From the NCBI RefSeq assembly GCF_900172265.1, contig NZ_FWFK01000001.1, forward strand, positions 930,001 to 994,000: 64,000 nucleotides of DNA. The letters are read 5' to 3'. The notes below the pieces were generated by a model. That model ran no database searches. It was given only the letters and a program-made list of their open reading frames with translations, and had not been told where the DNA came from. This document shows positions 6,525-21,374 of the stretch, one piece after another. Source of the stretch: Roseivivax jejudonensis. Its GTDB lineage: Bacteria; Pseudomonadota; Alphaproteobacteria; Rhodobacterales; Rhodobacteraceae. Both the position numbers and the translations under genes were made by a program. Numbering within the stretch: the stretch's first letter is position 1; each line of letters starts with the position of its first letter.

Positions 6525-6802
6525 GCCGCCCTCCGCTCGCCGATGCGACGGCCATGCTTAGCCACGTGATCCAGCACCTCGCCGAAGTCGCCAACGTGAA
6601 GGATCGTGGCCTCGGTGATCGCGGGCCATCTCTGGCCAATTGCCAAGACGTCGATGTCACCCGTGATGCCTCGCGCCCGCGCCAGCCGCTCAACAGCTGC
6701 CTTGCGCTGGCCTTCAGGCCACTGGTCGGGAGCCACACCCACAACCGTCACGGCACCGCGCGTCGTCTCCAGCCTGTCGATGCGTTGGGAAAGCCTGCTC
6801 AT
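6521..6802 (-). CDS. Small element protein with N-terminal coiled coil (93 aa)
   Basis: Function unknown. It begins MSRLSQRIDRLETTRG, a short amphipathic helix almost repeated in the 49-aa gene just upstream (MNRLSKRVEDLERK), so the two may form or compete for coiled coils. The rest is a compact alpha/beta-looking segment with no motif I know. ATGA overlaps at both ends place it firmly in the operon between the DUF5681 gene and the M15 gene. Confidence 0.65.
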   Translation of the reverse strand: MSRLSQRIDRLETTRGAVTVVGVAPDQWPEGQRKAAVERLARARGITGDIDVLAIGQRWPAITEATILHVGDFGEVLDHVAKHGRRIGERRAA

Positions 6803-6948
6803 TTCTCCTGCCCCTCTTCCACGATCCGCTTTTCAATCCACTCGCCGGCTTCGTTTTGCCCGATGATGACGCGCTCGATCCTCGGGGGCTCGACGGTGTC
6901 CGGTGTCTTGCGCTCCAGATCCTCGACGCGTTTGCTCAACCTGTTCAT
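6799..6948 (-). CDS. 49-aa coiled-coil micro-protein
   Basis: A short frame beginning MNRLSKRVEDLERK and ending IVEEGQEK. Support comes from position: its ATG (6946-6948) overlaps the stop of the DUF5681 gene and its TGA overlaps the ATG of the following gene, exactly as at other junctions of this operon. The N-terminus matches that of the 93-aa product downstream, suggesting an interacting pair. The C-terminal half (ERVIIGQNEAGEWIEKR) looks like a small beta hairpin. No function can be assigned. Confidence 0.6.
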   Translation of the reverse strand: MNRLSKRVEDLERKTPDTVEPPRIERVIIGQNEAGEWIEKRIVEEGQEK

Positions 6949-7430
6949 GTCCTGCTCTCCAGTGCCGCCACGCGGCGTTCGAGTTCTTCGGTCTCAAGGG
7001 CCCGCCGGTAGGTCTCAACCAGCGCCATCACGCTTGCCGCTTCGCTTGGGGTCAGCTCGCCCTCGGACACAGCCTTCAGGACCGCTTGCGCCGCCTTGGT
7101 GGCGTCTTCGGCGGTCTTCATGTCGGGTAGGTCAAAGCTGACCGGGGCGTCCTTCTTGGCGGGAGCGATCCGCTCCAGGCAGAGGCGCATGGCTGTCGTG
7201 TCACCCTCCAGCGCCATCTCGACAGCCTTGCGGGTGATGCCCTCGGCTTCGCCCTCCAGCAGTTCCTCGACAGCTCTCGTGATCCGATGCCGTGCGCCGC
7301 GCGGGCGGCCCGGATTGCCGGGAGCGAACTTGCCGTCGGCGTTGCGCGTCGCCGTATTCGCTCCGTTGTTACGGTCGGCCGGCGCCCGGAGAAGCTGGCC
7401 TGACGGGATTCCGTCAACATATGTAAACAT
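6945..7430 (-). CDS. DUF5681 domain protein (161 aa)
   Basis: Residues about 32-50 contain the DUF5681 signature (KFAPGNPGRPRGARHR), followed by a helical region with EGITRKAVEMALEGD and LERIAP typical of this phage-associated family. The family is common beside phage packaging genes, and a terminase-related role is often guessed, but no activity is established to my knowledge. The C-terminus is a coiled coil (ELERRVAALESR). The start ATG overlaps the prim-pol TAA (TAATG), and a strong GGAGGAGG ribosome-binding site lies inside the prim-pol 3' end, indicating coupled high expression. Confidence 0.8.
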   Translation of the reverse strand: MFTYVDGIPSGQLLRAPADRNNGANTATRNADGKFAPGNPGRPRGARHRITRAVEELLEGEAEGITRKAVEMALEGDTTAMRLCLERIAPAKKDAPVSFDLPDMKTAEDATKAAQAVLKAVSEGELTPSEAASVMALVETYRRALETEELERRVAALESRT

Positions 7431-8572
7431 TAAACCTCCTCCCCTTCTTTCCCCGCTCCCCCCGAGGCCAAGCGAAGCCGGGAGACATTGCTCGCGTAAA
7501 ACATTGCGGGGTGGAGCCTGCAGAGCCGGTAGCTTCTAGCGTGATGCCCTGCGCGATGCTTGCAGGCGGTTTCCAGAAGCCCGACACGCGCGAGCGCGGT
7601 TCTCGCTGCGTTGAAGCGCTCGCGAGACAAATCGATATGCCCGGCCGCTCTCATCGCTGCGTGGTTCAATGCGAAGGTCTTGCCGGGCGTATGACCGTGA
7701 ACCGCTTGAAGCGTCACAAAGAGGGCGATTGCGTCCACCGAGTTCGGTAGAACCTGCAATGCATCGAGCGCTTGCCGGTTGATCCTGAATTCGCTGTTTC
7801 GCCCCATGAAGACGTTGCCTTCCAGCCGTTTCGACCATGCCCACTCGGCAATCTTGCGCAGCTCCCTGTCCGGCACCGTCGCCGGATCTTCGCATTCGTC
7901 ATCACGGAGGAACTGCAGGTTGCCGAACAACTCGTCGGTGTCGTCCACGGACTCGACCATCTGGATGGCGGCGAGCGTGAGCGTGTAGTTGCGTCCACCG
8001 GTCTCGATACGTGAGCCGATTGGCTTTGACGGTATGCGCGAGCTAGCGCCCTTCGACGCAGCGCCGCCGGTCGATTGACGCAGCGCAGGCAGATCATCGA
8101 GACCGAGTGCTCCCTTGGCGGGTTCGTATCTCCCACCGTCTGGTCGTACCGAGCCGGGACCCGCCACGTAGCTTGTCGCACCGCGCTTGATATCGACTGG
8201 CAGTCCTTCCTTGCGCAGGTTTGGAAACGCACCACCCTCCGCCCTGTAGTAGAGATGGCGACCGCGTGGCGTTCTGACATGTACGGAAGACGCGCCAAAA
8301 CGCGCCTCCATGGCTTCGACGAGCCCCGGGTCGTCGGTGTCGCAATCGATCACCGCCAGGCCGTCGAGACGGATCCCGAAGCAAGCCGATCCCGTTCGAT
8401 GCATGGGTGCCAGAACCCGCTTTAAAGGAAGCCTGTCGGTCGCGCCGAACTTCACCAACGGGCTCTTGCCGTCGTCACCTGCGCCAAGCGGCAAGAGACT
8501 AAAGCCCGCGCTGTGAAGCCTCGCCATGGCATCCGCTGGCGGACCTGAGAAATGAAGCTTGCGGGCTTCCAT
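7430..8572 (-). CDS. Primase-polymerase (prim-pol domain), element replication protein (380 aa)
   Basis: The N-terminal 200 residues match the archaeo-eukaryotic primase (bifunctional DNA primase/polymerase) fold: the metal-binding D76-x-D78 in LAVIDCDTD, H106 in TPRGRHLYY and D127 in PVDIKRGATSYVAGPGS. Members make primers and extend DNA in plasmids, phages and satellites. No Walker motif for a fused helicase is present. The C-terminal 170 residues resemble a winged-helix region. I chose the ATG at 8570-8572, with GGAGG eight bases upstream and a TGATG overlap with the preceding gene, over longer starts. Two ssDNA-binding-like genes lie directly upstream, so together they form a replication module. 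Confidence 0.85.
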   Translation of the reverse strand: MEARKLHFSGPPADAMARLHSAGFSLLPLGAGDDGKSPLVKFGATDRLPLKRVLAPMHRTGSACFGIRLDGLAVIDCDTDDPGLVEAMEARFGASSVHVRTPRGRHLYYRAEGGAFPNLRKEGLPVDIKRGATSYVAGPGSVRPDGGRYEPAKGALGLDDLPALRQSTGGAASKGASSRIPSKPIGSRIETGGRNYTLTLAAIQMVESVDDTDELFGNLQFLRDDECEDPATVPDRELRKIAEWAWSKRLEGNVFMGRNSEFRINRQALDALQVLPNSVDAIALFVTLQAVHGHTPGKTFALNHAAMRAAGHIDLSRERFNAARTALARVGLLETACKHRAGHHARSYRLCRLHPAMFYASNVSRLRLASGGAGKEGEEV

Positions 8573-8802
8573 CACCATGCCCTCCGCTTCTCGGACAAAG
8601 CATGCAGCGCCTTGTTGAGGCCGGCGCAGAACTCCGGAAGATGCCGCGGACGGATGAAGCACCCCTGCTTGGTCGGGTGCATCTTGCCGTCCTCACCCCG
8701 GAACCAGGTGCGAACGTCGATGCGCTGGCGACCCCGGAATTGCTCCAGGGTCACGCGCACCTCCTCGTCCTTGCCTTTCGAGATGATTGCGAGGGTCGTC
8801 AC
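8572..8802 (-). CDS. PC4/p15-like ssDNA-binding protein, copy 2 (76 aa)
   Basis: The pattern E-x-V-R-V-T-L-x-x-F-x-G, then IDVRTWFRGEDGKMHPTKQG, is the PC4 (transcriptional coactivator p15) core: a four-stranded sheet and C-terminal helix that dimerises and binds single-stranded DNA. I chose the GTG at 8800-8802 since it overlaps the previous stop (GTGA), has GGAGG nine bases upstream and gives the same 76-aa length as the adjacent paralogue. It lies directly before the primase gene and overlaps its start, which fits a replication role (protecting or presenting ssDNA) more than transcription. It has two cysteines (GCFI, EFCAG) absent from copy 1. Confidence 0.8.
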   Translation of the reverse strand: MTTLAIISKGKDEEVRVTLEQFRGRQRIDVRTWFRGEDGKMHPTKQGCFIRPRHLPEFCAGLNKALHALSEKRRAW

Positions 8803-9029
8803 TGCTGCTGCCCTCCGCACTCGGGCGGCATGTTCCGCACTTCGGTGAGGACTTCGAGGAAGTCCGACAGAAGCTCCGCCTTGAACGCGATGCCCTGCTT
8901 GCCAGGCTTCATCTCGCCGCCCGCGTCGTAAAAGACGCGGACGTTGATCATATCGTGACCTTTGAAGTCATTCCGCATGATGCGGATCTCTTCGCGGTCA
9001 TTCTTCCTGATCTTGGTGAACAAGGGCAT
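8799..9029 (-). CDS. PC4/p15-like ssDNA-binding protein, copy 1 (76 aa)
   Basis: The product matches the PC4 core: REEIRIMRNDFKGHDMINVRVFY followed by GEMKPGKQGIAF and a C-terminal amphipathic helix, as in single-stranded-DNA-binding coactivator-type proteins. It pairs with the neighbouring copy at 8572-8802, same length but strongly diverged, so this is an old tandem duplication or a deliberate heterodimer. The start ATG at 9027-9029 overlaps the stop of the 33-aa ORF (TGATG). Placement before a prim-pol gene argues for DNA replication of the element. Confidence 0.8.
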   Translation of the reverse strand: MPLFTKIRKNDREEIRIMRNDFKGHDMINVRVFYDAGGEMKPGKQGIAFKAELLSDFLEVLTEVRNMPPECGGQQQ

Positions 9030-9130
9030 CAGCCACGCCCTCCGAATGCGAGCCCGGCGATGACGCGGGCGGTCGGTTCGGGCAGGCCGTGGCGCTTGCG
9101 GAGGCGGTCAATCTGAAGGCGTCGGGTCAT
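9029..9130 (-). CDS. 33-aa basic micro-ORF
   Basis: A short frame, MTRRLQIDRLRKRHGLPEP and then ARVIAGLAFGGRG. It is supported only by its position: its ATG (9128-9130) overlaps the upstream stop (ATGA) and its TGA overlaps the start of the first PC4 gene (TGATG). Strongly basic N-terminus, no known domain. It may be a real micro-protein or a translational coupling leader. Confidence 0.5.
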   Translation of the reverse strand: MTRRLQIDRLRKRHGLPEPTARVIAGLAFGGRG

Positions 9131-9483
9131 GCTGCCACCTGCTGGCTGGTAACGCGGTGGACCCGCGAAACAAGCGTATAGGTTCCGTATGCACCCGCTC
9201 CGGTGTTGGGATCACCGGCGTAATAATCCGTGTGGATCTCGACGCCGGTTTCGCGCTTCAGCACGTGCACGATGTCCGAAATCCGCACCGGGCTCGCGCA
9301 ATACACCGGAGCATCGATCAACAGATCCATGATCTGGCGCTTGCGCTTGGACAGCAGGCACACGCGCACCGAGCCATCCGTGTTGCGGATCTCGTAAGCC
9401 ACCGGGCGCCGGTCTTTCGGCAAGTCGGCGACACGCCAGATGCGGCGCGCGTTTTTCGGTGGAATTGCAGTTTCAGTCTTCAT
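9127..9483 (-). CDS. Small element protein, possibly winged helix (118 aa)
   Basis: First gene of the long coupled operon. I do not recognise a family. The middle (KRKRQIMDLLIDAPVYCAS and ISDIVHVLKRETG) reads like the helices of a winged-helix DNA-binding fold, followed by a wing-like segment ending GTYTLVSRVHRV, so a regulator or replication-initiation accessory is possible. It starts with the ATG at 9481-9483. The 110-base gap upstream should contain the operon promoter. Its stop overlaps the 33-aa ORF start. Confidence 0.6.
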   Translation of the reverse strand: MKTETAIPPKNARRIWRVADLPKDRRPVAYEIRNTDGSVRVCLLSKRKRQIMDLLIDAPVYCASPVRISDIVHVLKRETGVEIHTDYYAGDPNTGAGAYGTYTLVSRVHRVTSQQVAA

Positions 9484-9486
9484 GGG

Positions 9487-9591
9487 TGGTCCTTTTGAGT
9501 TGAAGGACCGGGCCGCTTACGCTATCTTTCAGTTGTCACGCCGATAAGAAATGCGCCCCCAGCAGGCCCGGAAGGGTTTGCGGGGGTTTTT
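9487..9591. terminator. Two hairpins between regulator and operon; bidirectional terminator
   Basis: CCCCC (9556-9560) and GGGGG (9582-9586) form a stem extended by flanking A-rich and T-rich arms, followed on the plus strand by TTTTT (9587-9591) and on the minus strand by a weaker T-rich tract, so it can end AlpA-gene transcription and also plus-strand transcription. A second hairpin, GGTCCTT (9487-9493) with AAGGACC (9502-9508), lies at the 5' side of the main operon. The plus-strand terminator has no plus-strand gene to serve. Confidence 0.55.
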
Positions 9592-9592
9592 C

Positions 9593-9787
9593 TTATGCGG
9601 CTTCGCGATTAGCGGCGGCGGCGTCGATGACTGCCAGAATCTCGCTTCGCTTCCAGCGGCTCATGCCGCCAATCTTGAGCAGACGAGAGATTGTGCCATC
9701 CTGCACGCGACGCCAAAACGTGGAGACAGAGGCGCCCAACATAGCAGCGGCCTCACGGTCACGGATCAGCTGGTCGATTTGTTGCAT
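9593..9787 (-). CDS. AlpA-family phage/excisionase-type HTH protein (64 aa)
   Basis: The protein fits the AlpA/MerR-like helix-turn-helix family: LIRDREAAAMLGASVSTFWRRVQDG, then a wing and RWKRSEILAVI. Such proteins regulate integrase genes or act as directionality factors for excision in phage-like islands. Length (64 aa) is typical. It stands alone between two hairpin-bounded gaps, next to the integrase transcript and upstream of the replication operon, the usual place for a control switch. Regulation of either flanking transcript is inferred. Confidence 0.85.
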   Translation of the reverse strand: MQQIDQLIRDREAAAMLGASVSTFWRRVQDGTISRLLKIGGMSRWKRSEILAVIDAAAANREAA

Positions 9788-9834
9788 TGCTCAGCCCTCG
9801 GCTTAATTGCGATGGGCTGACAATAATCGGTGAT

Positions 9835-9863
9835 GTGGCGCGCACTCGAACGTGCGCGCGCCA
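9835..9863 (-). terminator. Hairpin directly after the integrase transcript
   Basis: GTGGCGCGCAC (9835-9845) can pair with GTGCGCGCGCCAC (9851-9863) with a two-base bulge. It begins right at the stop of the gene at 9864-10481, so it probably ends or stabilises the integrase transcript. Confidence 0.5.
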
Positions 9864-10481
9864 CTATTTTCTCAAAGCTTTCGCAACCGTTTTCGGATTT
9901 CGCCGAATTCCATGCCGTCGCTGCAGGGCGTTGGCAACCCAAGCAGCTTGCTTGTTGCCGGTCATCTCAGTTTCTTTCGCAATTTCAATGGCTAAAGCCT
10001 GCCATTGCGCTGCTTCCAGCTTGCGCTCCTTGTTGTGCTGATCACGCCCTTCGTTTCGGTACGCCAGAGACTTCTTGGCTTTCCAGCGGTCCAGCACGTC
10101 TTTCTCAAATTGCCACTTCATGTTTGCCTCTGCCCACATGATACCAGCGTGGAAGGCGAAATGAGCTGCGTTATCAGCATCGTTCTCTGAAATGCGGTCA
10201 AATGCATTCCACAGAGCCTCGCAGATTGTTCGTGCGAAGTCCTCTTTCGAATGAGGTGGTTCCGGGCCCGGCTCTGCGTCGGTCAGTATACCGGTGCAAG
10301 TCTCTTTGATTGGATTCACAACTGCGGCGAATGCACCGCCGTGCGTCGCCACCTGCTTCTGCCACTCGAGAAAAGCGGAATGCACTGCTTCGCGGCCTTC
10401 ATCCGTTCCAATGTCGTATAGTATCACCGGTTTAGCCGTGATCCCGGTTCCAAACTCGCCTTTTGAACCGTTTTTGGTCAT
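9864..10481 (-). CDS. Unknown element protein coupled to the integrase (205 aa)
   Basis: I do not recognise this protein. It begins MTKNGSKGEFGTGITAKP and has a mixed N-terminal half with a segment TICEALWNAFDRISEND, then a charged helical half (KWQFEKDVLDRWKAKK) ending RNPKTVAKALRK, which looks like the recognition end of a helix-turn-helix. The start at 10479-10481 overlaps the integrase stop (ATGA), so the two are co-translated. That position suggests a role in integration, excision or control of the integrase, but this is inference from context only. No membrane segment. Confidence 0.6.
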   Translation of the reverse strand: MTKNGSKGEFGTGITAKPVILYDIGTDEGREAVHSAFLEWQKQVATHGGAFAAVVNPIKETCTGILTDAEPGPEPPHSKEDFARTICEALWNAFDRISENDADNAAHFAFHAGIMWAEANMKWQFEKDVLDRWKAKKSLAYRNEGRDQHNKERKLEAAQWQALAIEIAKETEMTGNKQAAWVANALQRRHGIRRNPKTVAKALRK

Positions 10482-11695
10482 CGCCGCTCTCCGTCGCCAA
10501 TGGCTTGACGGCCAAATTCGACAACTTTTCCGGCGCCTTTGCCTGTTACGTGGTCTGCCCACCGCTCCATCAAGACGTGCCGCTGCTCCAGGAAGTCCGT
10601 CCGCCGATATGCACGTTCAACCGCGCTGCCGGTCGTATGCGCCATCACGGTCTCCGCGACCTCGTGCGGTGCGTCGGTCGTCTCGGACAGCCAGGTGCGC
10701 AAGCTGCTACGAAAACCGTGCGGCCGCTCTGCCAATTCGCGGCGCTCCATAAGGCGGGACATGGTTGCGTCCGAGATGACGCCTTTCCGCGCGCTCGGGA
10801 AGAGGTACCCGTCTCGCGTATGCGGTTTTGCCAACTCGATGACGGCCAGAGCTTCAGTGGACAGCGGCACGCGGAAGTCGCCAGTCTTGCCCTCGCGGCC
10901 CTTCATCAGCTCCGCCGGTATCGTCCACACGCTGCCGTCTATCTGGTTGAGGCTCAGAAAACGGATTGGCTTTGACCTCGCGCCGGTCAGGATCAGCAGT
11001 CGAAGCGCCAAGTGCGTTACGGTCGGCTCGTGCAGGGTCTCGTAGAACGCAGGCACCTCGCGCCAGTCCATTGAAGCGATGTTCTGCGGCTTGTGCCGAC
11101 TCTTGCCGAGAAGCGCTTTTGCTTTTTCGGTAGCCTGCAGATCCACGTCGAGCCCGAGCGCGGCGGCGTGTTTCATCACAATGCTCAGCCGGTTCATCGC
11201 TTTTCGGGCCGTGTCAGCCTTGCTGTGCCAGATGGGCGACAGCGCCGACTTGATGTCCTGCTGGCTGATCTCCTCTACAGGCACCCGACCGAGCTTCGGC
11301 AGGACGTGAAGCTCAAGCGGGGAGAACCAACGACCGGCTTTACCGTCCCCGCGCAGTTCCGCCTTGCGCGCCTCAAATGCATCGGTCGCCAGAGTGCGGA
11401 GCGTGTTGTCGGATCGGGCGGCCTTTCGTTTCAGACGGTCTCGCTCCTTGATCGGATCTTTCCCCTCGCGAGCAATCGCCCGCCAGCGCTCAGCTTCCAG
11501 CCGCGCTTCCTTGAGCGAGACGTCGGACAGCCGGCCGAGGCCCATCTCGCGGCGCCGGCCGTGGACGGTAACGCGCAGAAACCACTGTGCGCCGCCATCA
11601 TCACGTTTGTGCAACCAAAGACCACCGCCATCGGCATGCTTTCCTGGCCTAGCGTTCTTTACTTCTGCAGCTGAGAGCCTGTGCAGCGCGCGCAC
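10478..11695 (-). CDS. Tyrosine integrase, P4-like (DUF4102) family
   Basis: The N-terminus (LSAAEVKNARPGKHADGGGLWL) is the DUF4102 arm-binding domain. The C-terminal catalytic domain shows the tyrosine recombinase residues: Arg in LLILTGARSKPIR, H-x-x-R in RPHGFRSSLRTW, His in VMAHTTG and Tyr in ERAYRRTD. Length (about 405 aa) is normal, so it should be active. I use GTG 11693-11695, where family members start; a GTG at 11741-11743 adds 16 atypical residues. This family usually targets a tRNA or other gene end, but no tRNA is visible beside it. It marks the right edge of the element. Confidence 0.9.
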   Translation of the reverse strand: MRALHRLSAAEVKNARPGKHADGGGLWLHKRDDGGAQWFLRVTVHGRRREMGLGRLSDVSLKEARLEAERWRAIAREGKDPIKERDRLKRKAARSDNTLRTLATDAFEARKAELRGDGKAGRWFSPLELHVLPKLGRVPVEEISQQDIKSALSPIWHSKADTARKAMNRLSIVMKHAAALGLDVDLQATEKAKALLGKSRHKPQNIASMDWREVPAFYETLHEPTVTHLALRLLILTGARSKPIRFLSLNQIDGSVWTIPAELMKGREGKTGDFRVPLSTEALAVIELAKPHTRDGYLFPSARKGVISDATMSRLMERRELAERPHGFRSSLRTWLSETTDAPHEVAETVMAHTTGSAVERAYRRTDFLEQRHVLMERWADHVTGKGAGKVVEFGRQAIGDGERR

Positions 11696-12372
11696 GTTCC
11701 GCCCACCCTTCAATCCACCCCAACATATGCCACAGCATGACACGGATTGAGGCCGAACGAAAGGGGTACACGCCGCCGTATCAGGATGTTGCGAGAAGCG
11801 CGAGACTGGATGAGGCTACACGATATTGATGTTCAATGCCTCTCCTGGGCACCATAGCGACCCCGAGAGTCCAAGTATGCTTGGCTATCTGAGGTGGCTG
11901 GCGTTTTTCCAGAACTTCCCCGTGAGACGACCCACTTGATCGCCCGGAGCATATCCGAGCGGAGTATCACATGGTGCGCGAGGCTCCCGCGAGACCGGTC
12001 ATACAGTCGCTGTACCAGCGCAACCCTGCATCCACATCGTCGCGGCGAGGGCGATCCACTGCGAGATGCGGCATGAGCTGCGAGGGAACGGTCGGAGGCG
12101 CGTCAGGCGCCGCATCGACTCGGGTGAAGTCCGCGCTCGGCGACATGGCTCCGACAGCCGGTGCCGCCAAGGTCACCGTAATCGACGATCCGCTTCGCGC
12201 ATTGAAACACAGCGCGGGTCGCGCCTCACTGCACCGATGCACCGCGCCGGCGCATCCGCCGCGGTCCAGCCTCGGTTGAATGAAGATCCCTGACCAGGGC
12301 GGCCTTTTGCCAAGAGCGGACGTGCGCGATGCTCGATAGGTTTTTTCGAGAATTTCGGCAATAATAGAGGCT
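11696..12372. other. Junction between element and chemotaxis operon, probable att region
   Basis: No gene is supported in this 677-base stretch. Open frames on both strands (for example 11971-12279 plus and 11967-12428 minus) have no family signature and no ribosome-binding site. No tRNA or tmRNA remnant was recognised. A palindrome CCAAG-TATG-CTTGG (11871-11884) lies about 175 bases from the integrase start and could be an integrase or regulator site. One end of the element must lie in or near this stretch if the integrase is adjacent to its att site. Confidence 0.45.
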
Positions 12373-12388
12373 TTGTGGTCTCTCCATT

Positions 12389-12403
12389 TTAATCCGCCAT
12401 TAG
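12389..12403 (+). promoter_or_regulatory. CtrA-like box before the chemotaxis operon
   Basis: TTAATCCGCCATTAG is TTAA-N7-TTAG, one base from the CtrA consensus TTAA-N7-TTAA. CtrA controls motility and chemotaxis genes in many Rhodobacterales. It lies 39 bases before the GTG at 12442 and inside the longest reading of that gene, so it is functional only if the start is downstream. Confidence 0.35.
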
Positions 12404-12441
12404 AAGGATCGCAGTACGTCTCCGGCAATGAAATTCGTGTA

Positions 12442-12705
12442 GTGGAGTTCGGAGACGTGTCTGACGATCAAGCTTTGACCGGCCTTGTCATTGGAGAGGC
12501 GGGATCCCTCAAGCGCGCGCTTCAGAGCCAAACTCATGAATTTCCCGATCCGTTGCCGGTCGACACGGCGGGCGTTCAGCTCGTTGCCGCTGCATTCCGC
12601 TCTGGCGTCGATGTTCCCGAAGAAATCTTGAGTGCGCCCGGGGTTCAGCGCCTGTGGCGCGCCCTCGCGTTCGACGAGGTCATTCCGCTGCCCGATCGGT
12701 CGTGA
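12442..12705 (+). CDS. STAS-domain-like protein at the head of the che operon
   Basis: The product resembles a divergent STAS domain: LTGLVIGEAGSLKRALQ matches the first strand and helix, and PVDTAGVQLVAAAFRSG matches the central strand and helix, with a C-terminal GVQRLWRALAFDEV helix. Small STAS proteins occur at the start of alphaproteobacterial chemotaxis operons. The start is uncertain: GTG 12442 is used here, TTG 12373 (poorly spaced AGAGG) and GTG 12457 are alternatives. It ends 19 bases before cheY. The conserved phosphorylatable Ser/Thr of anti-sigma antagonists is not obvious. Confidence 0.5.
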   Translation: MEFGDVSDDQALTGLVIGEAGSLKRALQSQTHEFPDPLPVDTAGVQLVAAAFRSGVDVPEEILSAPGVQRLWRALAFDEVIPLPDRS

Positions 12706-12724: not shown

Positions 12725-13093
12725 ATGATGCGCCCAATTTTGGTGGTGGATGACTCGCCTTCTGTTCGAAACATGATTGCAAGCACGCTCAAAACCGCCG
12801 GCTACGCGGTGGAGACCGCGCAGGATGGGCAGGAGGCGCTCGAGGCGACGCGCCGAACCTCCTTTCGAGCCGTGATCACGGATCAGAACATGCCGCGCCT
12901 GGACGGCGTTTCCTTTTGCGAGGCCTTTCGCTCACGTCCGGAGAACCGCGGCATACCCGTGGTGTTTCTGTCCACCGAAAGCGAGGACAGCATCAAGCAG
13001 CGCGCCCGCGCCGCAGGGGCCATCGGCTGGATGACCAAGCCATTCGACCAGGCCCAACTGCTCAGCGTCGTCGGAAAGGTGGTCGGCGCATGA
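12725..13093 (+). CDS. cheY: CheY response regulator
   Basis: A single receiver domain of 122 aa. The acidic pair D9-D10 (VVDDSPSV), phosphoacceptor D53 (ITDQNMP), the hydroxyl residue in FLSTESE and K105 (WMTKPF) are all present. Phosphorylated by CheA, such CheY proteins bind the flagellar motor or act as phosphate sinks. Two ATGs stand in tandem; the first is used, and longer upstream readings run into the preceding gene. Its TGA overlaps the cheA start (ATGA). Confidence 0.95.
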   Translation: MMRPILVVDDSPSVRNMIASTLKTAGYAVETAQDGQEALEATRRTSFRAVITDQNMPRLDGVSFCEAFRSRPENRGIPVVFLSTESEDSIKQRARAAGAIGWMTKPFDQAQLLSVVGKVVGA

Positions 13094-15006
13094 TGGACGA
13101 CGAGTCGCTCAAGATGTTCCGCGCCGAGGCCGACAGTCTCGTCGAGGCGCTCGAAGAAAAGCTGCTTGCGCTGCAAGAGGCGCCCGCGAACCGTGACCTG
13201 ATCGACGGCGTCTTCCGTGACCTGCACACGCTGAAGGGTACAGGTTCCATGTTCGGGCGCGAGGATATCGCCAGCTTCCTGCATGATTTCGAGACCGCGT
13301 TCGAAAGTGTGCGGTCCGGCGAAACGGCGATCGACCCCGGTCTCGTGAAGATCAGCCTTGCGGCCAGTGATCACGTCGCATCGCTGCTCGTCGGTGGCGA
13401 CATTGCCGAAGGCCGCGCCATCCTCGAGCGCCTCTCCGGACACCTTCAACAAGCTGCAGATTCAAGGACTTCGCCCTGGACCGTCCGGTTCTATCTGCCG
13501 CCGGACACTCTCTTGCTCGGAGGGCGACCGGACCTCGTGCTGAACGAACTACGGGACATGGGGGCCACGAATATCCGTCCCTTGTTCGACAACCTCCCGG
13601 ATTTCGCCACGCTGGACCCTGCTCAACTTTATGTCGGCTGGGAAATGTCGATCGACGCGTCCGTCGCCGAGGACGATATCCGCGGCGCTTTCCTCTTTCA
13701 TGAGGACGGGCTCGTTCTGGACATCTCGAGAGACGAAACCGAGCCGGTCACTGCGCCGCCGGAGGCCGGCGCCGCGGGAACGCCCCGGCCCGCACAGGCC
13801 GCGCGTCCCGATCTCAAGACATCCGCAAAACCGGGGGGCCTGATGCGTGTGCCCTCCGAACGCTTGGACGACATGATGGACCGCGTGGGCGAACTTGTCA
13901 TCGCCGAGGCCCGGCTGGTGGAACTGGCCTCCCGCTCGGGCGAGCCGAACCTCGTTTCTGTGGCAGAGGATATCCAGCGCCTGACCACCGCAATGCGCGA
14001 CACAACAATGTCGATCCGCATGACCCAGATTGGCTCGATCACTGGCCGGTTCCGGCGGCTGATCCATGACCTGACCGCCAAGACCGGCAAATCGATCCGG
14101 TTCAAGACCTCGGGCGAGGAAACCGAACTCGACAAGACCGTCGTCGAACGCCTGACCGAACCCCTGATGCACATTATTCGCAACGCGGTCGATCATGGCC
14201 TCGAAATGCCCGCACAACGCAAGGCGATGGGCAAACCCGAGGCCGGAACAGTCACTCTGACGGCCCGGCACGCCGGTGCCGAAGTGCTGATCTCTCTGAC
14301 CGATGACGGTCGCGGCCTCGACCGCCAGGCCATTCGGAACCGCGCACTCGAACGTGGCTTGGTGCAGGACATCGCCGACCTGCCGGACCACGCGATCCCC
14401 GGCCTGATCTTCGCCCCGGGCTTTTCCACCGCCGACGAGGTAACGGAGCTTTCCGGCCGCGGTGTCGGAATGGACGTCGTGCGCGAAACCATCGACGCGC
14501 TGCGCGGTTCTATCGAGGTCGAGAGCGAGCCCGGCCACGGCACATCGATCACACTCCGCCTGCCCCTGACGCTGGCGATCATCGATGGACTGTTGATCGA
14601 GGTTTCCGGCGAACGGTTCGTCATCCCGCTCGCGGCGGTCGACGAGATCGTCGAGCTTCCCGACGCTCTCTGCCGCGACGAAACCGGCAACGCTTTTCTC
14701 GATATTCGCGACAGCCTCGTACCGTTCCTGCGCCTGCGCCAACTGCTGGACAGTGATGGTCCCCCGGATCGGCATCAGAAAGTCGTCATCGCCACAAGCA
14801 GCGAGAGCCGGGTCGGCCTCGTCGTCGATCGCATCATCGGCTCGAACCAGACCGTCATCAAGCAACTGTCTCCGCTTCACGCCGCGCTCAAGATGTTCTC
14901 GGGCGCCACGATCCTCGGCGATGGCAACGTCGCCCTCATTCTCGATGTGCCGCAGCTCGTCGCTCGTGGCCGGATCGAAGCTGACACCGGCAAGGACGCG
15001 GCATGA
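13090..15006 (+). CDS. cheA: CheA chemotaxis histidine kinase
   Basis: 638 aa. Domains in order: HPt with phosphorylated H46 (FRDLHTLKGTGSMFG), a linker region with a weak P2-like part, the dimerisation helices (SERLDDMMDRVGELV), the GHKL ATPase with N box (LMHIIRNAVDHGLE) and glycine-rich G box (LSGRGVGMDVVRE), and a C-terminal CheW-like domain. It autophosphorylates under receptor control and passes phosphate to CheY and CheB. Start chosen from the ATGA overlap with cheY. cheW follows with an overlap as well. Confidence 0.96.
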   Translation: MMDDESLKMFRAEADSLVEALEEKLLALQEAPANRDLIDGVFRDLHTLKGTGSMFGREDIASFLHDFETAFESVRSGETAIDPGLVKISLAASDHVASLLVGGDIAEGRAILERLSGHLQQAADSRTSPWTVRFYLPPDTLLLGGRPDLVLNELRDMGATNIRPLFDNLPDFATLDPAQLYVGWEMSIDASVAEDDIRGAFLFHEDGLVLDISRDETEPVTAPPEAGAAGTPRPAQAARPDLKTSAKPGGLMRVPSERLDDMMDRVGELVIAEARLVELASRSGEPNLVSVAEDIQRLTTAMRDTTMSIRMTQIGSITGRFRRLIHDLTAKTGKSIRFKTSGEETELDKTVVERLTEPLMHIIRNAVDHGLEMPAQRKAMGKPEAGTVTLTARHAGAEVLISLTDDGRGLDRQAIRNRALERGLVQDIADLPDHAIPGLIFAPGFSTADEVTELSGRGVGMDVVRETIDALRGSIEVESEPGHGTSITLRLPLTLAIIDGLLIEVSGERFVIPLAAVDEIVELPDALCRDETGNAFLDIRDSLVPFLRLRQLLDSDGPPDRHQKVVIATSSESRVGLVVDRIIGSNQTVIKQLSPLHAALKMFSGATILGDGNVALILDVPQLVARGRIEADTGKDAA

Positions 15007-15563
15007 CATCACGCCAAGAAAAGAACGGCATATCCAATACCGATGTCGTGACCTTCCAGGTCAGCGGTGAGGTCCTCGCTGTACCCGCCGCTCAGTTGCG
15101 AGAGGTGCTCGAACCCGCAAGCATAACCCGCGTTCCGGGTGCCGATGAATTCGTGGGTAGCATCCTGAATGTGCGCGGATCGGTCGTGCCTCTCGCGGAT
15201 CTGCGCGTGCCTTTGCGCATGCCTCGGACGCACGAACAGAAAGACCGCCGCATCCTCGTGCTCGAACTGCCGCTCGAAGAGGGTGAAATCGTCGTCGGCA
15301 TCATCGCCGACAGCGTTCACGACGTCACGCGGATCGAAGCTGACGAGTTGGAGGATATCCCCCCAGTCGGAACACGCTGGCCACCCCGCTACGTCGCGGC
15401 CGTGGGGCTGTCCAACGGCGACTTCGTGACGATCCCCAACCTCGCTACGATTTTCCATGGGTTCCTGTTGGCCCAGAACGGTCGGCCGAACATGCACGCC
15501 GCGCCCGGCGCGGTCCCAGCCACCGAACCGGAGCAAGCCCAATGCGTTTCACGTTTAAGTTGA
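15003..15563 (+). CDS. cheW: CheW coupling protein, first copy
   Basis: 186 aa CheW domain: [24 protein letters not shown] at the start, [17 protein letters not shown] in the middle and [22 protein letters not shown] towards the end. It links receptors to CheA. It carries about 25 extra C-terminal residues compared with the second copy. The ATG overlaps the cheA stop, and the mcp gene begins 22 bases before this gene ends in another frame. Confidence 0.94.
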
Positions 15564-17185
15564 AACTTGCCGCGACCTTCATCGTCCTTATCGCCCTTGC
15601 CGCGATCGGCATGATTTCCAGCCTCAATTCCCTCGGGCGGATGAGCGCCAATCTCACCGAGATCACGAAAGTCGAGGCCGAGAAGGTCCGCCTGGCCGAG
15701 CATTTCACCGCCGGGCAGCTGAGGATCCAGCGTGACGTGCGCGAACTCGTACTCGCCGACAGCCCCGCGCTGAAGGCCGAGGTCCGATCGCGCATGAATG
15801 ATGCCCGCTCGCGCGCCGAGCAGACATTTGCCGACCTCAATGCGCTGTCGACCGAGGAAGGGCGCGCGCTGCTGACTGCCGGGCAGGCGGCCTGGCAGGA
15901 TCTGATCGAGATCAACGAACGCGCGCTCTCGCTCGCGGACAGCGGAAATACCACAGGCGCGTTTCGGCTGCTCAGCGGACAGGGCCAGGACTTGTGGGAA
16001 ACGATGGAGGAAAACCTCGATGCGATCATCGCGCTCAACCGCGAAGGCCTGGCGGCGGCGGATGCCCGGTCGAATGCGAATTACGCCAGTTCGCGCCTGC
16101 TCGCGATCGTGCTGACGGTCGCGATGGTCGCCATCGGCGCGGTGGCCGCGCTCTGGATCATCATGACGATCTCACGCGGCCTGCAGCGCGGCATCGCGCT
16201 GGCCCAGAAGGTCGCATCGGGCGATCTGACGGAAACCGCTACGTTGCGTGGCAATGACGAGGTGACCGACCTCATCCGAACCCTGAACGGCATGGTCGAG
16301 AAACTGCGCGGAACCGTCGGCGAGGTGTCGATCGGATCGACGAACGTGGCCTCCGGTGCCGGGGAAATGGCCTCGACCTCCGAACAGCTTAGCCAGGGCG
16401 CCACCGAGCAGGCCTCGTCGACCGAAGAAGCATCGAGCTCGATGGAGCAGATGACCGCCAACATCAAGCAGACAGCGGAAAACGCCAGCACGACGGAGAG
16501 CATGGCCCTCAAATCGGCGGCCGATGCGCGCGAAAGCGGCCGTGCTGTCGCCGAAGCCGTGGACGCGATGAAGACGATCGCCGAACGCATCCTCGTCGTG
16601 CAGGAAATCGCCCGCCAGACCGATCTGCTGGCCCTCAACGCAGCCGTCGAGGCCGCCCGCGCGGGAGAGCATGGGCGCGGGTTCGCCGTGGTCGCCTCGG
16701 AAGTACGCAAGCTGGCCGAGCGCAGCCAGACCGCGGCGGGCGAGATCAGCGGTCTGTCTTCGGACACGGTCAAGGCCGCTGAGGAAGCGGGTCAGATGCT
16801 CGAAGGGCTCGTCCCCGACATCGAGAAAACCGCCGAACTGGTCAGCCAGATCAGCGGTGCCAGCCAGGAACTCGCCACGGGCGCCAATCAGGTCAACTCC
16901 GCGATCCAGCAGCTCGACAAGGTCACCCAGGAAAACACCTCGGCCGCCGAACAGATGTCGTCGACCGCGGAAGAACTCTCGGCTCAGGCCGAAACGCTGC
17001 GCGGGGCGATGTCCTTTTTCCGCTTGGCTGCGGGCGGGGTAGCAAGCCCCGTGAATACCTCGGCGCGTGTGGCTGCGCCGAACGTGCGTGCGGCCAAACA
17101 GACCGCCGGGTTCAATTTCGACATGTCCGTGGACGAGGACGAGCTCGACGCGCAATTCGTCCGCAAGACCGGTGCCGCGGCCTGA
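15542..17185 (+). CDS. Methyl-accepting chemotaxis protein
   Basis: 547 aa membrane receptor. Transmembrane segment 1 (about 7-26) is followed by a four-helix-type sensor region (about 30-180), transmembrane segment 2 (about 183-207, [20 protein letters not shown]), a HAMP domain (to about 260) and a long signalling coiled coil whose tip reads [36 protein letters not shown]. The C-terminus has no NWETF-type CheR tether. Ligand unknown. The start lies inside cheW, which implies translational coupling, so receptor and coupler are made together. Confidence 0.95.
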
Positions 17186-17220: not shown

Positions 17221-17700
17221 ATGCAAGCCGAAGAGACCGTCGTGACATTCGAGATTGGCAAGGCACGCTTCGCTCTGCCCGTGAGCCCCGTCGTTGAGAT
17301 CCTCGATGCCCGCAATATCTCGCCGTTGCCGCGCACACCGAAGCATCTTCTCGGTCTGATCGACCGGCGCGGCTGCTCCGTGCCGGTGGTCGATCTGCGT
17401 CGCCTGCTGGGCCAGGCGGATGCAGAGGACACCGACCGCACGCGGATCATTGTCCTCCGGATAGACCGGCCCGAACAGCAGCGGCAGAATGTCGGATTGC
17501 GTGTCGACCACGTCACCGAGGTCACCCAACTGGACGATGCCGGAAGCGCCCCGCTGACCGAGGCCGAACTGCTGCGCTGGCATGAAAGAATGGTTGCCGG
17601 GATCGGGCGTCGTGGCGACGCCTTCGTGACCGTGCTCGATGTCGAGGGTCTATTCGCCGGCGAATTCGCGCATTTCGCGGCTGCTGGTCAGACTTGCTGA
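17221..17700 (+). CDS. cheW: CheW coupling protein, second copy
   Basis: 159 aa CheW domain protein: VVTFEIGKARFALPVSPVVEIL, then LLGLIDRRGCSVPVVDLRRLL and VGLRVDHVTEVTQLDDA. It diverges clearly from the first copy in the operon. Two CheW proteins in one operon often differ in receptor choice; here one may serve the membrane receptor and the other a soluble signalling protein, but this is speculation. cheR starts one base after its stop. Confidence 0.92.
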   Translation: MQAEETVVTFEIGKARFALPVSPVVEILDARNISPLPRTPKHLLGLIDRRGCSVPVVDLRRLLGQADAEDTDRTRIIVLRIDRPEQQRQNVGLRVDHVTEVTQLDDAGSAPLTEAELLRWHERMVAGIGRRGDAFVTVLDVEGLFAGEFAHFAAAGQTC

Positions 17701-17701
17701 C

Positions 17702-18559
17702 ATGAACAAACCGCTCACGTCCTCCGGCAAACTGCATCTCGAGCAGTTCCGCAAGCTCGTGCACAACGCCACCGGGATCAAGCTGCCCGTGTCGAAAGAC
17801 CTGATGATCGAGTCGCGCCTGCGGCGGCGCCTCGTGACCCTCAACATGCCCGACCTCGACACTTATCTGGGCAACCTGTTCAGCGCACCGGATGCACTGA
17901 AGGCGGAACTGCCCGAGATCATCGATCTCATGACGACGAACAAGACAGATTTCTTCCGAGAGCAGGCGCACTATCGCATTGTTGCGGAACGCCTTGTCCC
18001 GGAGGCCCTTAACCGCGCCGCGCCTGGTCAGTCCGTGCGTTACAAGGTCTGGAGTGCCGCCTCCTCTACCGGGGCCGAGGCGTGGTCGGCCGCCATGGTG
18101 CTTGCCGAATACGCCCGCAAGGACCCACGACTCGACTGGGCCATCATGGGCACGGACATCTCGCGGCGCGTGATCGATACGGCCAGAAAGGCGATCTATT
18201 GCTCGTCCGAGCTTGCCCCGGTTCCCCGACAGATGCGTGATGCCTACCTGATGTCCGGTCGCGAGAGCGTCTCCGAGCGGGCCCGGATCGTGCCCGAGTT
18301 GCGCGCCCGCGTGCGGTTCGCCGAGCTCAATCTCATGGACGACCACTACGATATCGACCGCGGGCTCGATCTCATCTTCCTTCGCAACGTTCTGATCTAT
18401 TTCGAACCCGAGGTCCAGGCGCGCGTCATCAGACGCATTTCCACCCATTTGCGCAGGCACGGCTATCTCATTGTCGGCCATTCGGAGTCGATGATGGTCC
18501 GGCAACCAGGCCTTCTTCAGGTGGCCCCTGGCGTCTTCCGAAACGACGGAGGCGACTGA
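17702..18559 (+). CDS. cheR: CheR receptor methyltransferase
   Basis: 285 aa. The N-terminal helical domain (FRKLVHNATGIKLPVSKDLMIESRL) is followed by the SAM-binding domain with VWSAASSTGAEAWSAAMV, the substrate-contact MGTDISRRVIDTA and LDLIFLRNVLIYFEPE. It methylates glutamates of the receptor. A longer reading from 17639 extends into cheW and was rejected. TGATG overlap with cheB. Confidence 0.95.
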   Translation: MNKPLTSSGKLHLEQFRKLVHNATGIKLPVSKDLMIESRLRRRLVTLNMPDLDTYLGNLFSAPDALKAELPEIIDLMTTNKTDFFREQAHYRIVAERLVPEALNRAAPGQSVRYKVWSAASSTGAEAWSAAMVLAEYARKDPRLDWAIMGTDISRRVIDTARKAIYCSSELAPVPRQMRDAYLMSGRESVSERARIVPELRARVRFAELNLMDDHYDIDRGLDLIFLRNVLIYFEPEVQARVIRRISTHLRRHGYLIVGHSESMMVRQPGLLQVAPGVFRNDGGD

Positions 18560-19674
18560 TGCGCAGAATAGATGTCATCATTGTCGACGACAGCGCGGCG
18601 GCGCGACGGGCGCTCTCATCACTGCTGTCCGACGATCCCGGCATCAACGTGCGCGCGACGGCTGCCGATCCGTTCGAGGCTGCCGAACTCCTCCGCAGGG
18701 GGGTTCCAGATGTCATCATCCTCGATCTGGAATTGCCGCGCATGAGCGGGCTGACCTTCCTGTCCAAGATCATGAAACAGCATCCGATACCCGTACTGAT
18801 CTGCTCCAGCCACACCGACGCCAATTCCAAGGCGGCCATGCGCGCGCTGGAACTCGGGGCCTGCGATGTGATCGGCAAACCTCGAATGGGAACGGCGGCC
18901 TTGCGCCACGAGGCGCAGATCCGCTTGACCGACGCCGTGCGCGCCGCCGCGCAGACCGGGCGGGTAGCCACGCCAAGCCGCACTGAAAAACCGGGCCACC
19001 CGCCAGGACCCGCGCTGTTGAAGCCAGATGCGAAACTGACGGCTGACGCGATCTTGCCCGGCCCGCGCGCGAACGCGCCGTATCCTCGCAACCTGCCGGC
19101 CTTGGTCGCGATCGGCGCCTCCACGGGAGGCACCGAAGCACTGTCGTCCCTGCTTCCAGAATTGCCCGCATCGACGCCGCCGATCCTGATCGTCCTGCAC
19201 ATGCCGGAAAAGTTCACCGCAGCCTTCGCGAAACGGCTGAACGGGCTCTGCAGGGTCGAAGTCCGCGAGGCCGTGCACGGCGAGCGCGTCCTGCCCGGCA
19301 CCGTGCTGATCGCACCGGGGGACCAGCATCTGCTGGTGAAACGGCAAGGACAGGGGTACCGGGTCGAGCTCGTGAGCGGCCCTTACGTCTGCCGTCACCG
19401 CCCGTCGGTCGATGTCCTCTTTCGCTCGACGGCAATCTCCGCTGGCTATGCTGCCCTCGGCGTCCTCCTCACCGGCATGGGAGACGACGGCGCGCGGGGC
19501 CTGCTGGAAATGCGAAACGCCGGCGCCGACACCATCGCCCAGGATGAAGCCACCTCGGTGGTTTGGGGCATGCCCGGAGAGGCCGCGAACCTGGGCGCCG
19601 CTAGACGGATAAGGCCGCTAAGTTCCATGGCGGCGGAAATCGCCGCGCATCGCCCTGCAGAGGCGTTGCCATGA
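18559..19674 (+). CDS. cheB: CheB receptor methylesterase/deamidase
   Basis: 371 aa. N-terminal receiver with D10-D11 and phosphoacceptor D56 (IILDLELPRMSG), a Pro-rich linker and a C-terminal methylesterase domain with catalytic Ser near 188 (AIGASTGGTEAL), His in VLHMPEKFT and Asp in GMGDDGARGL. It removes receptor methyl groups for adaptation. Overlaps the next gene by ATGA, tying that unusual protein to the pathway. Confidence 0.95.
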   Translation: MRRIDVIIVDDSAAARRALSSLLSDDPGINVRATAADPFEAAELLRRGVPDVIILDLELPRMSGLTFLSKIMKQHPIPVLICSSHTDANSKAAMRALELGACDVIGKPRMGTAALRHEAQIRLTDAVRAAAQTGRVATPSRTEKPGHPPGPALLKPDAKLTADAILPGPRANAPYPRNLPALVAIGASTGGTEALSSLLPELPASTPPILIVLHMPEKFTAAFAKRLNGLCRVEVREAVHGERVLPGTVLIAPGDQHLLVKRQGQGYRVELVSGPYVCRHRPSVDVLFRSTAISAGYAALGVLLTGMGDDGARGLLEMRNAGADTIAQDEATSVVWGMPGEAANLGAARRIRPLSSMAAEIAAHRPAEALP

Positions 19675-21374
19675 ACGATATCGAACGCGCATGTGCTTCG
19701 TTGCAAAGAACCGTCGCCGACATCACCGGTTCGATTGAGGAGGTCTTCGAAACCACATCGATGTCGGTGTTCGATCAACTGTCCGAGATACAAGCCATTG
19801 CTCAAGCCATAACGCAGATCCGGGAAGTGGCGGCGCCGGACGGGCTGGAAGAGCTGTGCACTGCGGTCAGCGACGCGGTCAGCTACCTGGATCGCATCGG
19901 GGCGCAATACGATTTTCTCGAAAAGGTCGCAGACAAATTGAAGGAGCAAGCCAAGGAGATTGGCGAGTCCCTGAACGCGCAGGATAGAAACATGCGTCTG
20001 GCTTCGATGATCGCCATGAACGCACAGGTCATCAGCAAGAGCGTCAAGGGCGCGGACGTATCACTGGCGAGCTTCGCGGAACAGGTGAGACCAATCGTGG
20101 ATCGCGCCGACGCGGCCGCTAGAGCGGTCGAGAACGGGTTGCACCAGGCAGACGCCCAGCTTTCAGGCGTTCGGACCCAGATCGACGAGTTGTGCGCCAC
20201 GGTCCGCGCGCTTACCGCCTGCCGGCACGAGGTTCAGAAATTGGTCACTGCCTTTTCCGATCGCTCCGGGATAGAGACCGCCCTGGACTCCGTTCTCGAA
20301 ACCAGCAGGCATCTTCGCAACGATCTCAACGCCGTCGTCGGCCACCTGCAATGCGGCGACGCCTCGCGTCAGCGTCTCGAGCACATAAACGTCATGCTCG
20401 ACACGGCAATTTCGTCCGACAGGACCACACAGGCAGTGATTTTCAAGATCGCATCTGCACAGTTCGCCGCAACGACGAGCGAGCTTCGATCTGCCGTCGG
20501 GGATGCCTTGCCCAAGCTGACAAGCATTTCATCGCTGATCGACCGCGCCCATGACAGCGTTTCCGCGCTTGCAGATGCCAAGCTGGTCGCCAGTCTCGAG
20601 GTCGCCGCTGAGAATATACGCTTCATTGCGAACGGTGTCGGTCAGGTAGCCGAACAAAAAGATCATCTGGCGCCGCAAATGGAGAGACTCACAGCGCTTT
20701 ACAGAACCGGTGCGTCGTCGACCGAACAAATGTCGAGTCTGAACGAAGCCATGCTGCATCTGGGCATCAATGCGACCTTGGTATCCAGCAAGCTGGGTAG
20801 CGAAGGCCGGGCGATGGTCGAGGTGTCTCAGCAACTTCACCACTGCACACTCGAAGTCAGTCAATCCAACATGCAGGTCGTGCATTCCGCGAAACTGCAA
20901 GAGCTCAACGCCATACTTTTCGCCGCCATTGCCGGTGTCGATGATCACACCGATGCGGCAGAAATGGTCGACACATTGGCAAATGCGCATCGGACCATTG
21001 GCAATGGCATCTCGAGCCTGGAAAGATGCGTCTCAAAAGACTCGAAGAAGAGCTTTCGTGCGGCCTACGACCGGCTTTCCCGATTCTCCCGCAAACGCGC
21101 TCTGTCAGTCGAATGTCCCTCGTATCCAGTTGAAACGCTTGCGCCAGCCGATGATCTGGCGGCGAAAATCGACGGCATACGTGAATCTTATACAATGCAG
21201 AGCGAGCGCGAAGTACACGACGCAATCGTCAGGCAAGTATGCTTGGAAAGGCCCGATCTCGAAACTGGATCGCCGCATGAGGTGCGCCAAAGCAGAGATG
21301 AACAGATCTTTGCACGGCGACGGATGACCCACCCGGAGCCTGCGCTCCAGAGAGGCGTAGGGCCTCGTCCATGA
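19671..21374 (+). CDS. Soluble coiled-coil protein with two degenerate receptor-tip-like segments (567 aa)
   Basis: I know no characterised homologue. There is no signal peptide, membrane segment or HAMP domain. Most of the chain is long helix. Residues 106-141 (LASMIAMNAQVISKSV then GADVSLASFAEQVR) and 356-391 (LGINATLVSSKLGSEGR then MVEVSQQLH) align with the receptor signalling tip ([27 protein letters not shown]), keeping the Asn-Ala, the Gly positions and the final Val/Leu-Arg/His helix but losing the acidic and Arg contacts. It is coupled by ATGA to cheB, so it likely acts with this Che system, for example as a cytoplasmic receptor or a decoy that binds CheA/CheW. The C-terminal 70 residues are polar and probably disordered. 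Confidence 0.7.
   Translation: MNDIERACASLQRTVADITGSIEEVFETTSMSVFDQLSEIQAIAQAITQIREVAAPDGLEELCTAVSDAVSYLDRIGAQYDFLEKVADKLKEQAKEIGESLNAQDRNMRLASMIAMNAQVISKSVKGADVSLASFAEQVRPIVDRADAAARAVENGLHQADAQLSGVRTQIDELCATVRALTACRHEVQKLVTAFSDRSGIETALDSVLETSRHLRNDLNAVVGHLQCGDASRQRLEHINVMLDTAISSDRTTQAVIFKIASAQFAATTSELRSAVGDALPKLTSISSLIDRAHDSVSALADAKLVASLEVAAENIRFIANGVGQVAEQKDHLAPQMERLTALYRTGASSTEQMSSLNEAMLHLGINATLVSSKLGSEGRAMVEVSQQLHHCTLEVSQSNMQVVHSAKLQELNAILFAAIAGVDDHTDAAEMVDTLANAHRTIGNGISSLERCVSKDSKKSFRAAYDRLSRFSRKRALSVECPSYPVETLAPADDLAAKIDGIRESYTMQSEREVHDAIVRQVCLERPDLETGSPHEVRQSRDEQIFARRRMTHPEPALQRGVGPRP

Follow-up and report, generated by a model that had tools for sequence, protein, structure and literature searches.

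In Rhodobacter sphaeroides, a model organism for multi-pathway chemotaxis, the protein TlpC is the closest described counterpart of the protein examined here. The tlpC gene closes the operon cheOp2, which is printed as cheY3 cheA2 cheW2 cheW3 cheR2 cheB1 tlpC, and a length of 580 amino acids is given for the product. PMC6829392 describes TlpC as being without a transmembrane domain, a sensory domain or a glycine turn motif. Our subject is a gene at 19671..21374 (+) within a window of 64,000 nucleotides from Roseivivax jejudonensis (contig NZ_FWFK01000001.1, positions 930,001 to 994,000 of the forward strand; coordinates below are those of the window). It encodes a soluble single chain of 567 amino acids with two receptor-like segments, and it belongs in all likelihood to the TlpC family. 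The kind of protein is thus most likely already known, though poorly understood, and what is new is its duplication anatomy and a strictly kept D-xxx-Q-R site. As an overall explanation we tentatively propose that the protein is a receptor-derived signal terminator docked to the chemoreceptor array.

The likeness to TlpC was judged by synteny and length. The Cereibacter johrii locus (L092) has cheA-cheW-cheW-cheR-cheB followed by a 580-residue family member, which matches the same profile family (E 2.9e-161) and has 17% identity to the 567-residue protein in an alignment of 81 family sequences. R. sphaeroides TlpC was counted as a member because of its position directly after cheB1 and its length. 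It has in common with the 567-residue protein the place after cheB, the length class, solubility and the absence of a HAMP or sensor part. The two loci differ in that cheOp2 is without a chemoreceptor gene between its cheW genes whereas the window operon has one, and the C. johrii protein has an FF-type C-terminus that the R. jejudonensis protein does not share. A first-pass annotation of the window, made from the sequence alone, knew of no characterised protein of this design; given TlpC, that statement is probably wrong. One point counts against the assignment. The second receptor-like tip keeps both glycines in the C. johrii and the R. jejudonensis proteins, at odds with the printed absence of a glycine turn from TlpC, and this disagreement lowers our confidence in TlpC membership a little. 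The first tip of the 567-residue protein is itself without a glycine turn. A second family member occurs in three Cereibacter-type genomes searched (G781-G783); in loci L149 and L154 it adjoins chemoreceptor genes and a cheOp1-like cheY-cheA-cheW-cheR-cheY cluster, and it is perhaps TlpS. Among the open-licence papers searched, no title or opening abstract credits TlpC with a receptor hairpin in duplicate or with a site like that of CheZ.

The most conserved part of the protein is a site of the form LQxxDxxxQR in residues 226-237 (LQCGDASRQRLE; 20346..20381, +), in which D230-xxx-Q234-R235 forms a CheZ-like motif. Conservation was counted in 36 rows, the 567-residue protein included, that had been found without the motif pattern, by searches with that protein or with family profiles, although those profiles contain the motif too. 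The rows were drawn from 134 members with full open reading frames (ORFs) scoring above 100, of which 105 remained once identical ends had been dropped; the 105-row set contains no broken or short matches. L226, Q227, D230, Q234 and R235 are each present in 36/36 rows, surrounded by G229 (33/36), R233 (32/36), E237 (29/36) and H238 (30/36). Divergent members retain the core of the site: L026, which matches only the first 360 profile positions, reads LQIHDITRQRLEHV, L074 reads LQFPDAFSQRREHV, L068 reads LQVVDRTNQRAGHV and a Sphingomonas member reads IQIGDSVRQRAEHA, so that Q-xx-D-xxx-Q-R is common to all of them.

Two further patches are nearly as strictly kept. Helix A, residues 23-33 (19737..19769, +), carries E23 (34/36), F26 (33/36) and position 33, which is L in 34/36 rows and V here. 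Near the C-terminus the motif YTMxxERxIH, which reads YTMQSEREVH at residues 507-516 (21189..21218, +), has Y507, E512 and R513 in 35/36 rows each and H516 in 34/36. Residue counting places the D230 site some 100 residues away from tip 1 and just ahead of the junction of the two halves, with E23 and F26 similarly far from tip 1; beyond the last long helix, at the same end as the D230 site, comes the YTMxxERxIH segment. From this counting, rather than from coordinates, we infer that the three patches may meet in one site. The family's acidic DDIFF-type end is replaced in the 567-residue protein by a tail, residues 540-567 (21288..21371, +), that runs DEQIFARRR and on where most members stop, and that has a predicted local distance difference test score (pLDDT) below 50 from residue 550 onwards. 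A terminal F is found in 28 of the 36 rows and an F last but one in 3 more, the 567-residue protein having neither; in the 81-row alignment 67 sequences end in F and 3 in FG. The F-type end is also missing from the closest named relative (L081). The D-xxx-Q-R site, the YTMxxERxIH motif and the C-terminal motifs went unmentioned in the first-pass annotation.

That annotation had placed two degenerate chemoreceptor tips at residues 106-141 and 356-391, and both placements are borne out. An offset of 250 residues brings segments 90-160 and 340-410 into ungapped alignment (hhalign probability 94.3, E 1e-7), and the N-terminal half matches the C-terminal half with a profile score of 52.0 (E 3e-7), against 30.1 (E 0.00079) for a reversed N-terminal half as control. 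From this sequence likeness the tips very probably arose by internal duplication. The C-terminal half matches the chemoreceptors of these operons with probability 95.6 and E 1.3e-8 (reversed control E 0.017), solved methyl-accepting chemotaxis proteins (MCPs) are matched by positions 276-528 of the profile built from 81 family sequences (best 2ch7, E 8e-20), and PF00015 is matched by 41/81 members at E up to 0.01. Tip 2 (20736..20843, +), which is MCP-like and keeps N367, G376 and G379 by profile alignment and residue comparison, is thus clearly chemoreceptor-derived. Tip 1 (19986..20093, +) is degenerate, and was located by profile alignment, with a predicted helix break at 125-129. Segment 106-141 alone matches MCPs with a probability of 29-32 (reversed control 4.6), a weak match, so that the recognition of tip 1 as a receptor tip depends mainly on its homology to tip 2. 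Coiled-coil models were matched by some of the 81 relatives (SMC_prok_B by 20, best E 1.2e-10; DUF948 by 17, best E 2.6e-8), which reads as an effect of composition.

The loss of key Glu and Arg contacts from the tips, also proposed in that annotation, is seen at tip 2, where we take Tsr numbering, and the roles of N381, E385 and R388 in Tsr, to carry over. In the 567-residue protein the Tsr N381 position is kept as N367, while V stands at the E385 position and K at that of R388. Across the family the equivalent of N381 is kept in 80/81 sequences and the two glycines in 77/81 and 79/81; among the rows found without the motif pattern the Asn is present in 35/36 and the glycines in 27/36 and 26/36. 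Residues seen at the E385 position are K, I, R, V, A and M. At the R388 position 78/81 sequences have K, Q, R or H, with R itself kept in only 19. Covariation among the 105 sequences places the pair 371-384, which lies across tip 2, 4th of 109,748 pairs and 1st of 461 at its own spacing. A positive residue is found on one side or a negative residue on the other, with both together in 0/105 rows (one gapped). The coupling would fit a hairpin at tip 2, although two subfamilies alone could give the same signal. A scan of the same alignment for hairpin centres gave z -1.2 to 0.7 at 375-376 and 0.7 at 127; centre 130 reached z 3.4 and 377.5 reached z 2.4, and the unrelated centres 415 and 431 ranked higher.

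Two receptor signalling segments in one chain are also found in natural soluble single-chain MCPs and in the engineered Tsr~Tsr; the natural proteins, likened here by description and not by sequence, are also without a membrane part. The 567-residue protein differs from single-chain MCPs in its degenerate tips, its extra conserved site and its C-terminal motif. Titration of CheA or CheW by a decoy with such tips would find some encouragement in tip 2, which keeps N367 without the trimer contacts. Tip 1, however, is strongly eroded, and the strictest conservation lies elsewhere, at a D/Q/R site that a pure decoy does not need, so that we consider a decoy very improbable.

The chain is soluble and without membrane, HAMP or sensor parts, as first annotated. 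A Kyte-Doolittle scan gave 0 windows above 1.6 for the 567-residue protein against 29 for the MCP of the same operon, and Pfam and NCBIfam scans found no HAMP or sensor domain in it. Such a hydropathy window is present in 12/81 family members, unlike the 567-residue protein. Searched alone against Pfam, NCBIfam and PDB sequences, the protein gave nothing over a curated cut-off, only weak and mostly coiled-coil matches, and a confident match to an unrelated family was likewise missing at the Pfam and NCBIfam curated cut-offs. The Pfam scan found no MCPsignal (PF00015) match in it. The profile searches suggested at first annotation thus place MCPsignal in 41 of the 81 relatives and neither MCPsignal nor CheZ in the protein itself. 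A family for which the 567-residue protein has no Pfam or NCBIfam match over cut-off thereby gains an anatomy and an operon context.

These features bear on the possibility that the protein is a soluble chemoreceptor or an array scaffold, which would organise CheA and CheW and transmit a cytoplasmic signal, the conserved site binding a metabolite or a Che protein without catalysis. The MCP-derived C-terminal half speaks for it, as does the account in PMC6829392, in which TlpC belongs to the cytoplasmic cluster, tlpC deletion makes that cluster diffuse, and the two-hybrid partners are TlpC itself, CheW4 and CheA3, not CheA4 or TlpT. The cluster phenotype at the same time counts against a signal terminator. 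A later review guesses at TlpC control of CheA4, counter to the two-hybrid result (PMC10924463). The scaffold role is weakened by the lack of a sensor domain in the Pfam and NCBIfam scans of the 567-residue protein, by the description of TlpC as having no obvious adaptation sites (PMC6829392), and by the place of the strongest conservation, an Asp/Gln/Arg site at a distance from the tips. We regard a scaffold or soluble receptor as a serious but tentative alternative. Decoy, soluble receptor and phosphatase-like accessory were the three roles considered at first annotation; the decoy has receded furthest, the soluble receptor stands as just described, and the phosphatase-like role is the one that we cautiously prefer.

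AlphaFold2, run with 81 sequences, predicts an all-helical protein (pLDDT 89.4; predicted template modelling score 0.74). Residues 125-129 in tip 1 and 248-250 between the halves, both places where turns are expected from homology, form helix breaks of 3-5 residues; further breaks of 3 or 4 residues occur at 195-198, 422-425 and 454-456; at tip 2 residue 375 alone is non-helical. The model of the C. johrii protein (pLDDT 89.9) has breaks at 130-133, 257-260 and also 314-317, and its tip 2 is helical throughout. Structure prediction had been suggested as a check on both tips. Helix breaks by themselves prove no hairpins in these models, least of all at tip 2, and because they are not specific the hairpins rest on receptor homology and, for tip 2, on the one covarying pair. 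Four-helix packing is likewise suggested by homology to receptors. Foldseek against the PDB returned nothing at E 1e-3 or better among 912 matches; a McpB-McpC model ranked 5th (E 0.011) amid long helical proteins in the best 50 of the 912.

In the explanation that we tentatively favour, one chemoreceptor hairpin was duplicated head to tail to give a soluble, all-helical protein. Tip 2, with its glycine turn and the Asn that receptors use to contact CheW and CheA, would dock the protein to the CheA/CheW complex, and such docking is somewhat probable. Lacking the Glu and Arg contacts, it would stay outside the ordinary trimers of dimers. D230-xxx-Q234-R235 would then be the likely functional centre, acting on phosphorylated CheY (CheY-P) as CheZ does, and the acidic-hydrophobic C-terminus of most members would tether CheY. 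The outcome would be a signal terminator in operons whose host family shows no CheZ, CheC or CheX in the genomes sampled.

In CheZ, CheY-P hydrolysis is assisted by an Asp and a Gln that are spaced by one helical turn. The two residues lie four apart, in a motif called DXXXQ in PMC7750401. Alphaproteobacterial CheZ reads FQD[IVL][TS]GQR[IV], with tails such as QDDIDDIL and SQDEIDALL. This reading comes from 30 loci, 2 of which yielded no ORF containing the search pattern and another 2 the wrong ORF; the 26 retained all carry FQD..GQR, so that agreement there is partly selected. The TlpC-family site has the same Asp and Gln four apart in a helix (as predicted by AlphaFold2), followed, as in alphaproteobacterial CheZ, by Arg and a hydrophobic residue. 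This is a likeness at the level of a motif and points to a candidate catalytic role only. An acidic-hydrophobic C-terminus is a further trait that CheZ has in common with most family members. CheZ differs in being a dimer of hairpins (PMC7750401), whereas the TlpC-family protein is one long MCP-derived chain. The best register of the two conserved blocks sets Asp on Asp at 6.8 bits, the next one reaching 5.3; a score of 6.8 was reached by 29/2000 shuffles that keep the hydrophobic pattern and by 22/2000 free shuffles. In a whole-family hhalign comparison with CheZ the best local match is again the Asp-on-Asp register (score 21.5, P 0.052), which 0/100 column shuffles equalled, and 34 of the 59 members with any match to an active-site hidden Markov model (HMM) align in register.

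Several results weigh against a CheZ-like protein. The Asp-on-Asp register ranks only 4th of 531 when slid along the whole family profile, and the hhalign score of 21.5 lies below reversed-profile controls (28.0 and 26.9), close to the 21.2 of ordinary chemoreceptors against CheZ, and was reached by 4/100 heptad shuffles. The Pfam CheZ model (PF04344) does not match the 567-residue protein, and CheZ HMMs fail to single out the family, which supplies 10 of the top 81 active-site HMM matches. A strict acidic-hydrophobic tail pattern occurs in 49/95 MCP ORFs and 16/26 CheZ proteins as against 14/81 family members, with 72/3673 ORF ends of more than 150 residues carrying it overall, and a C-terminal tether for CheY is uncertain for the 567-residue protein, where the tail is absent. 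Homology to CheZ by profile was accordingly rejected as unproven on the hhalign controls and the HMM ranking. Convergence on a CheZ-type site is possible on the sequence pattern, and a CheZ-like action on CheY-P might follow, a suggestion that we put forward with reserve. Chemoreceptors in these operons (15542-17185 in the window; L081-L160) often share a tail like GGFDFDLxxxEDDLDAxFxR.

The distribution of signal-terminating proteins was examined in the same bacteria. CheZ (PF04344) was found in 0/1 own genome and 0/100 sampled genomes of the host family, and CheC and CheX each in 0/61 sampled family genomes; CheZ is present in 141/372 genomes of the class. R. sphaeroides is described as without a CheZ homologue, CheA3 serving CheY6-P, and as of 2010 no phosphatase had been identified for its regulators other than CheY6 (PMC2924250). 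CheA3, as the CheY6-P phosphatase, resembles the proposed role in ending the signal without CheZ in the same bacteria. Two CheA3-like Cereibacter proteins, identified by position and end domains (frames of 1041 and 1072 amino acids), lack LQxxDxxxQR and lie outside the family-profile matches; a motif common to the CheA3 phosphatase region was therefore considered and not seen in these two proteins. The case for a missing phosphatase also has points against it. The printed list of cheOp1 genes of R. sphaeroides includes cheX, and because of this other phosphatases may have been missed or lie outside the sample. Three genomes (G442, G450 and G757) carry both the TlpC family and CheZ, contrary to a simple replacement. 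CheY6 has also been proposed as a phosphate sink for the other regulators (PMC2924250, as above), for which reason a further phosphatase could be unnecessary. That the TlpC family consists of CheY-P phosphatases which arose from a duplicated chemoreceptor, dock to CheA/CheW arrays with one receptor tip, reached by convergence a CheZ-type Asp/Gln site at the opposite end, and fill the place of a phosphatase missing from Rhodobacteraceae and related che operons is, taken as a whole, a rather doubtful proposition.

The gene is coupled to cheB (18559..19674, +), its ATG lying inside the cheB stop codon in a four-base ATGA overlap at 19671-19674, and it is the last gene of a che operon. The first-pass annotation had read a place in the Che pathway from the same overlap. 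A position after cheB is also kept in related genomes: among 80 named loci cheB lies directly upstream on the same strand in 76 (exceptions L099, L119, L149 and L154). With start codons chosen by script, the four-base overlap is found in 45/76 loci and a gap within 22 bases either way in 74. The cheR-cheB-gene order and this overlap would suit a cofactor of adaptation that binds or regulates CheB or CheR, its site lying where receptors carry methylation sites. With numbering extended from the tip, D230 would presumably fall near Tsr 494, in keeping with a distance of roughly 100 residues from tip 1 to the site. LQxxDxxxQR does not, however, fit the receptor methylation consensus, and coupling within an operon does not by itself show contact, so that we consider such a cofactor unlikely.

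Relatives occur in 4/61 near genomes and in at least 17/394 genomes of the host family, the own genome included in both counts, and a profile match of E 1e-24 or better in at least 24/295 genomes of that family. The latter two counts are lower bounds, three to four candidates having been scored per genome, and many of the profile-search matches cover only about 270-520 and appear to be ordinary chemoreceptors. The 80 named loci, kept from 127 and including Rhodobacteraceae, Devosia, Bradyrhizobium and Rhodopseudomonas, were found by the pattern LQxGD[SAT][ATS]RQR, so that the 100% motif conservation among them is partly by construction. Of 9 genomes of the genus, 3 carry the cheB of this operon, and the TlpC-family gene is present in just these 3. 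Beyond these groups, the Sphingomonas plasmid NZ_CP155752.1 (228745-230493; L230) has the same che gene order and a member (family profile E 2.4e-70; "hypothetical protein" in the Prokaryotic Genome Annotation Pipeline) that keeps the site (IQIGDSVRQR), YTMASERLIH and a DDDDDGLF end. The plasmid search gave one record with the 567-residue protein as query and no match with the C. johrii protein. The family member at locus L019 (G249:C1:761934-762501) looks broken, its matches falling in two short, separate frames that cover positions 214-294 and 333-419.

The operon that the gene closes is on the forward strand, in the order cheY-cheA-cheW-mcp-cheW-cheR-cheB, with each Che gene confirmed by Pfam: cheY (receiver domain, 12725..13093), cheA (Hpt, dimerisation, ATPase and CheW-like domains, 13090..15006), a first cheW (15003..15563), a transmembrane chemoreceptor (4HB, HAMP and MCPsignal, 15542..17185), a second cheW (17221..17700) and cheR (17639..18559). 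A 110-residue ORF without a Pfam match (12373-12705) lies just ahead of cheY. Directly upstream of the operon is a prophage-like or integrative stretch (2152-11743) with a tyrosine integrase (10478-11743, -) and a primase-polymerase (7430-8662, -), both by Pfam, and ARAGORN found no tRNA in the window.

Should the D/Q site prove catalytic, the phosphatase of the R. sphaeroides regulators other than CheY6 would have a candidate in TlpC, which would also be an instance of a receptor turned enzyme. Even if it does not, the anatomy and the operon context of the family are now described, and the site offers a target for mutation.

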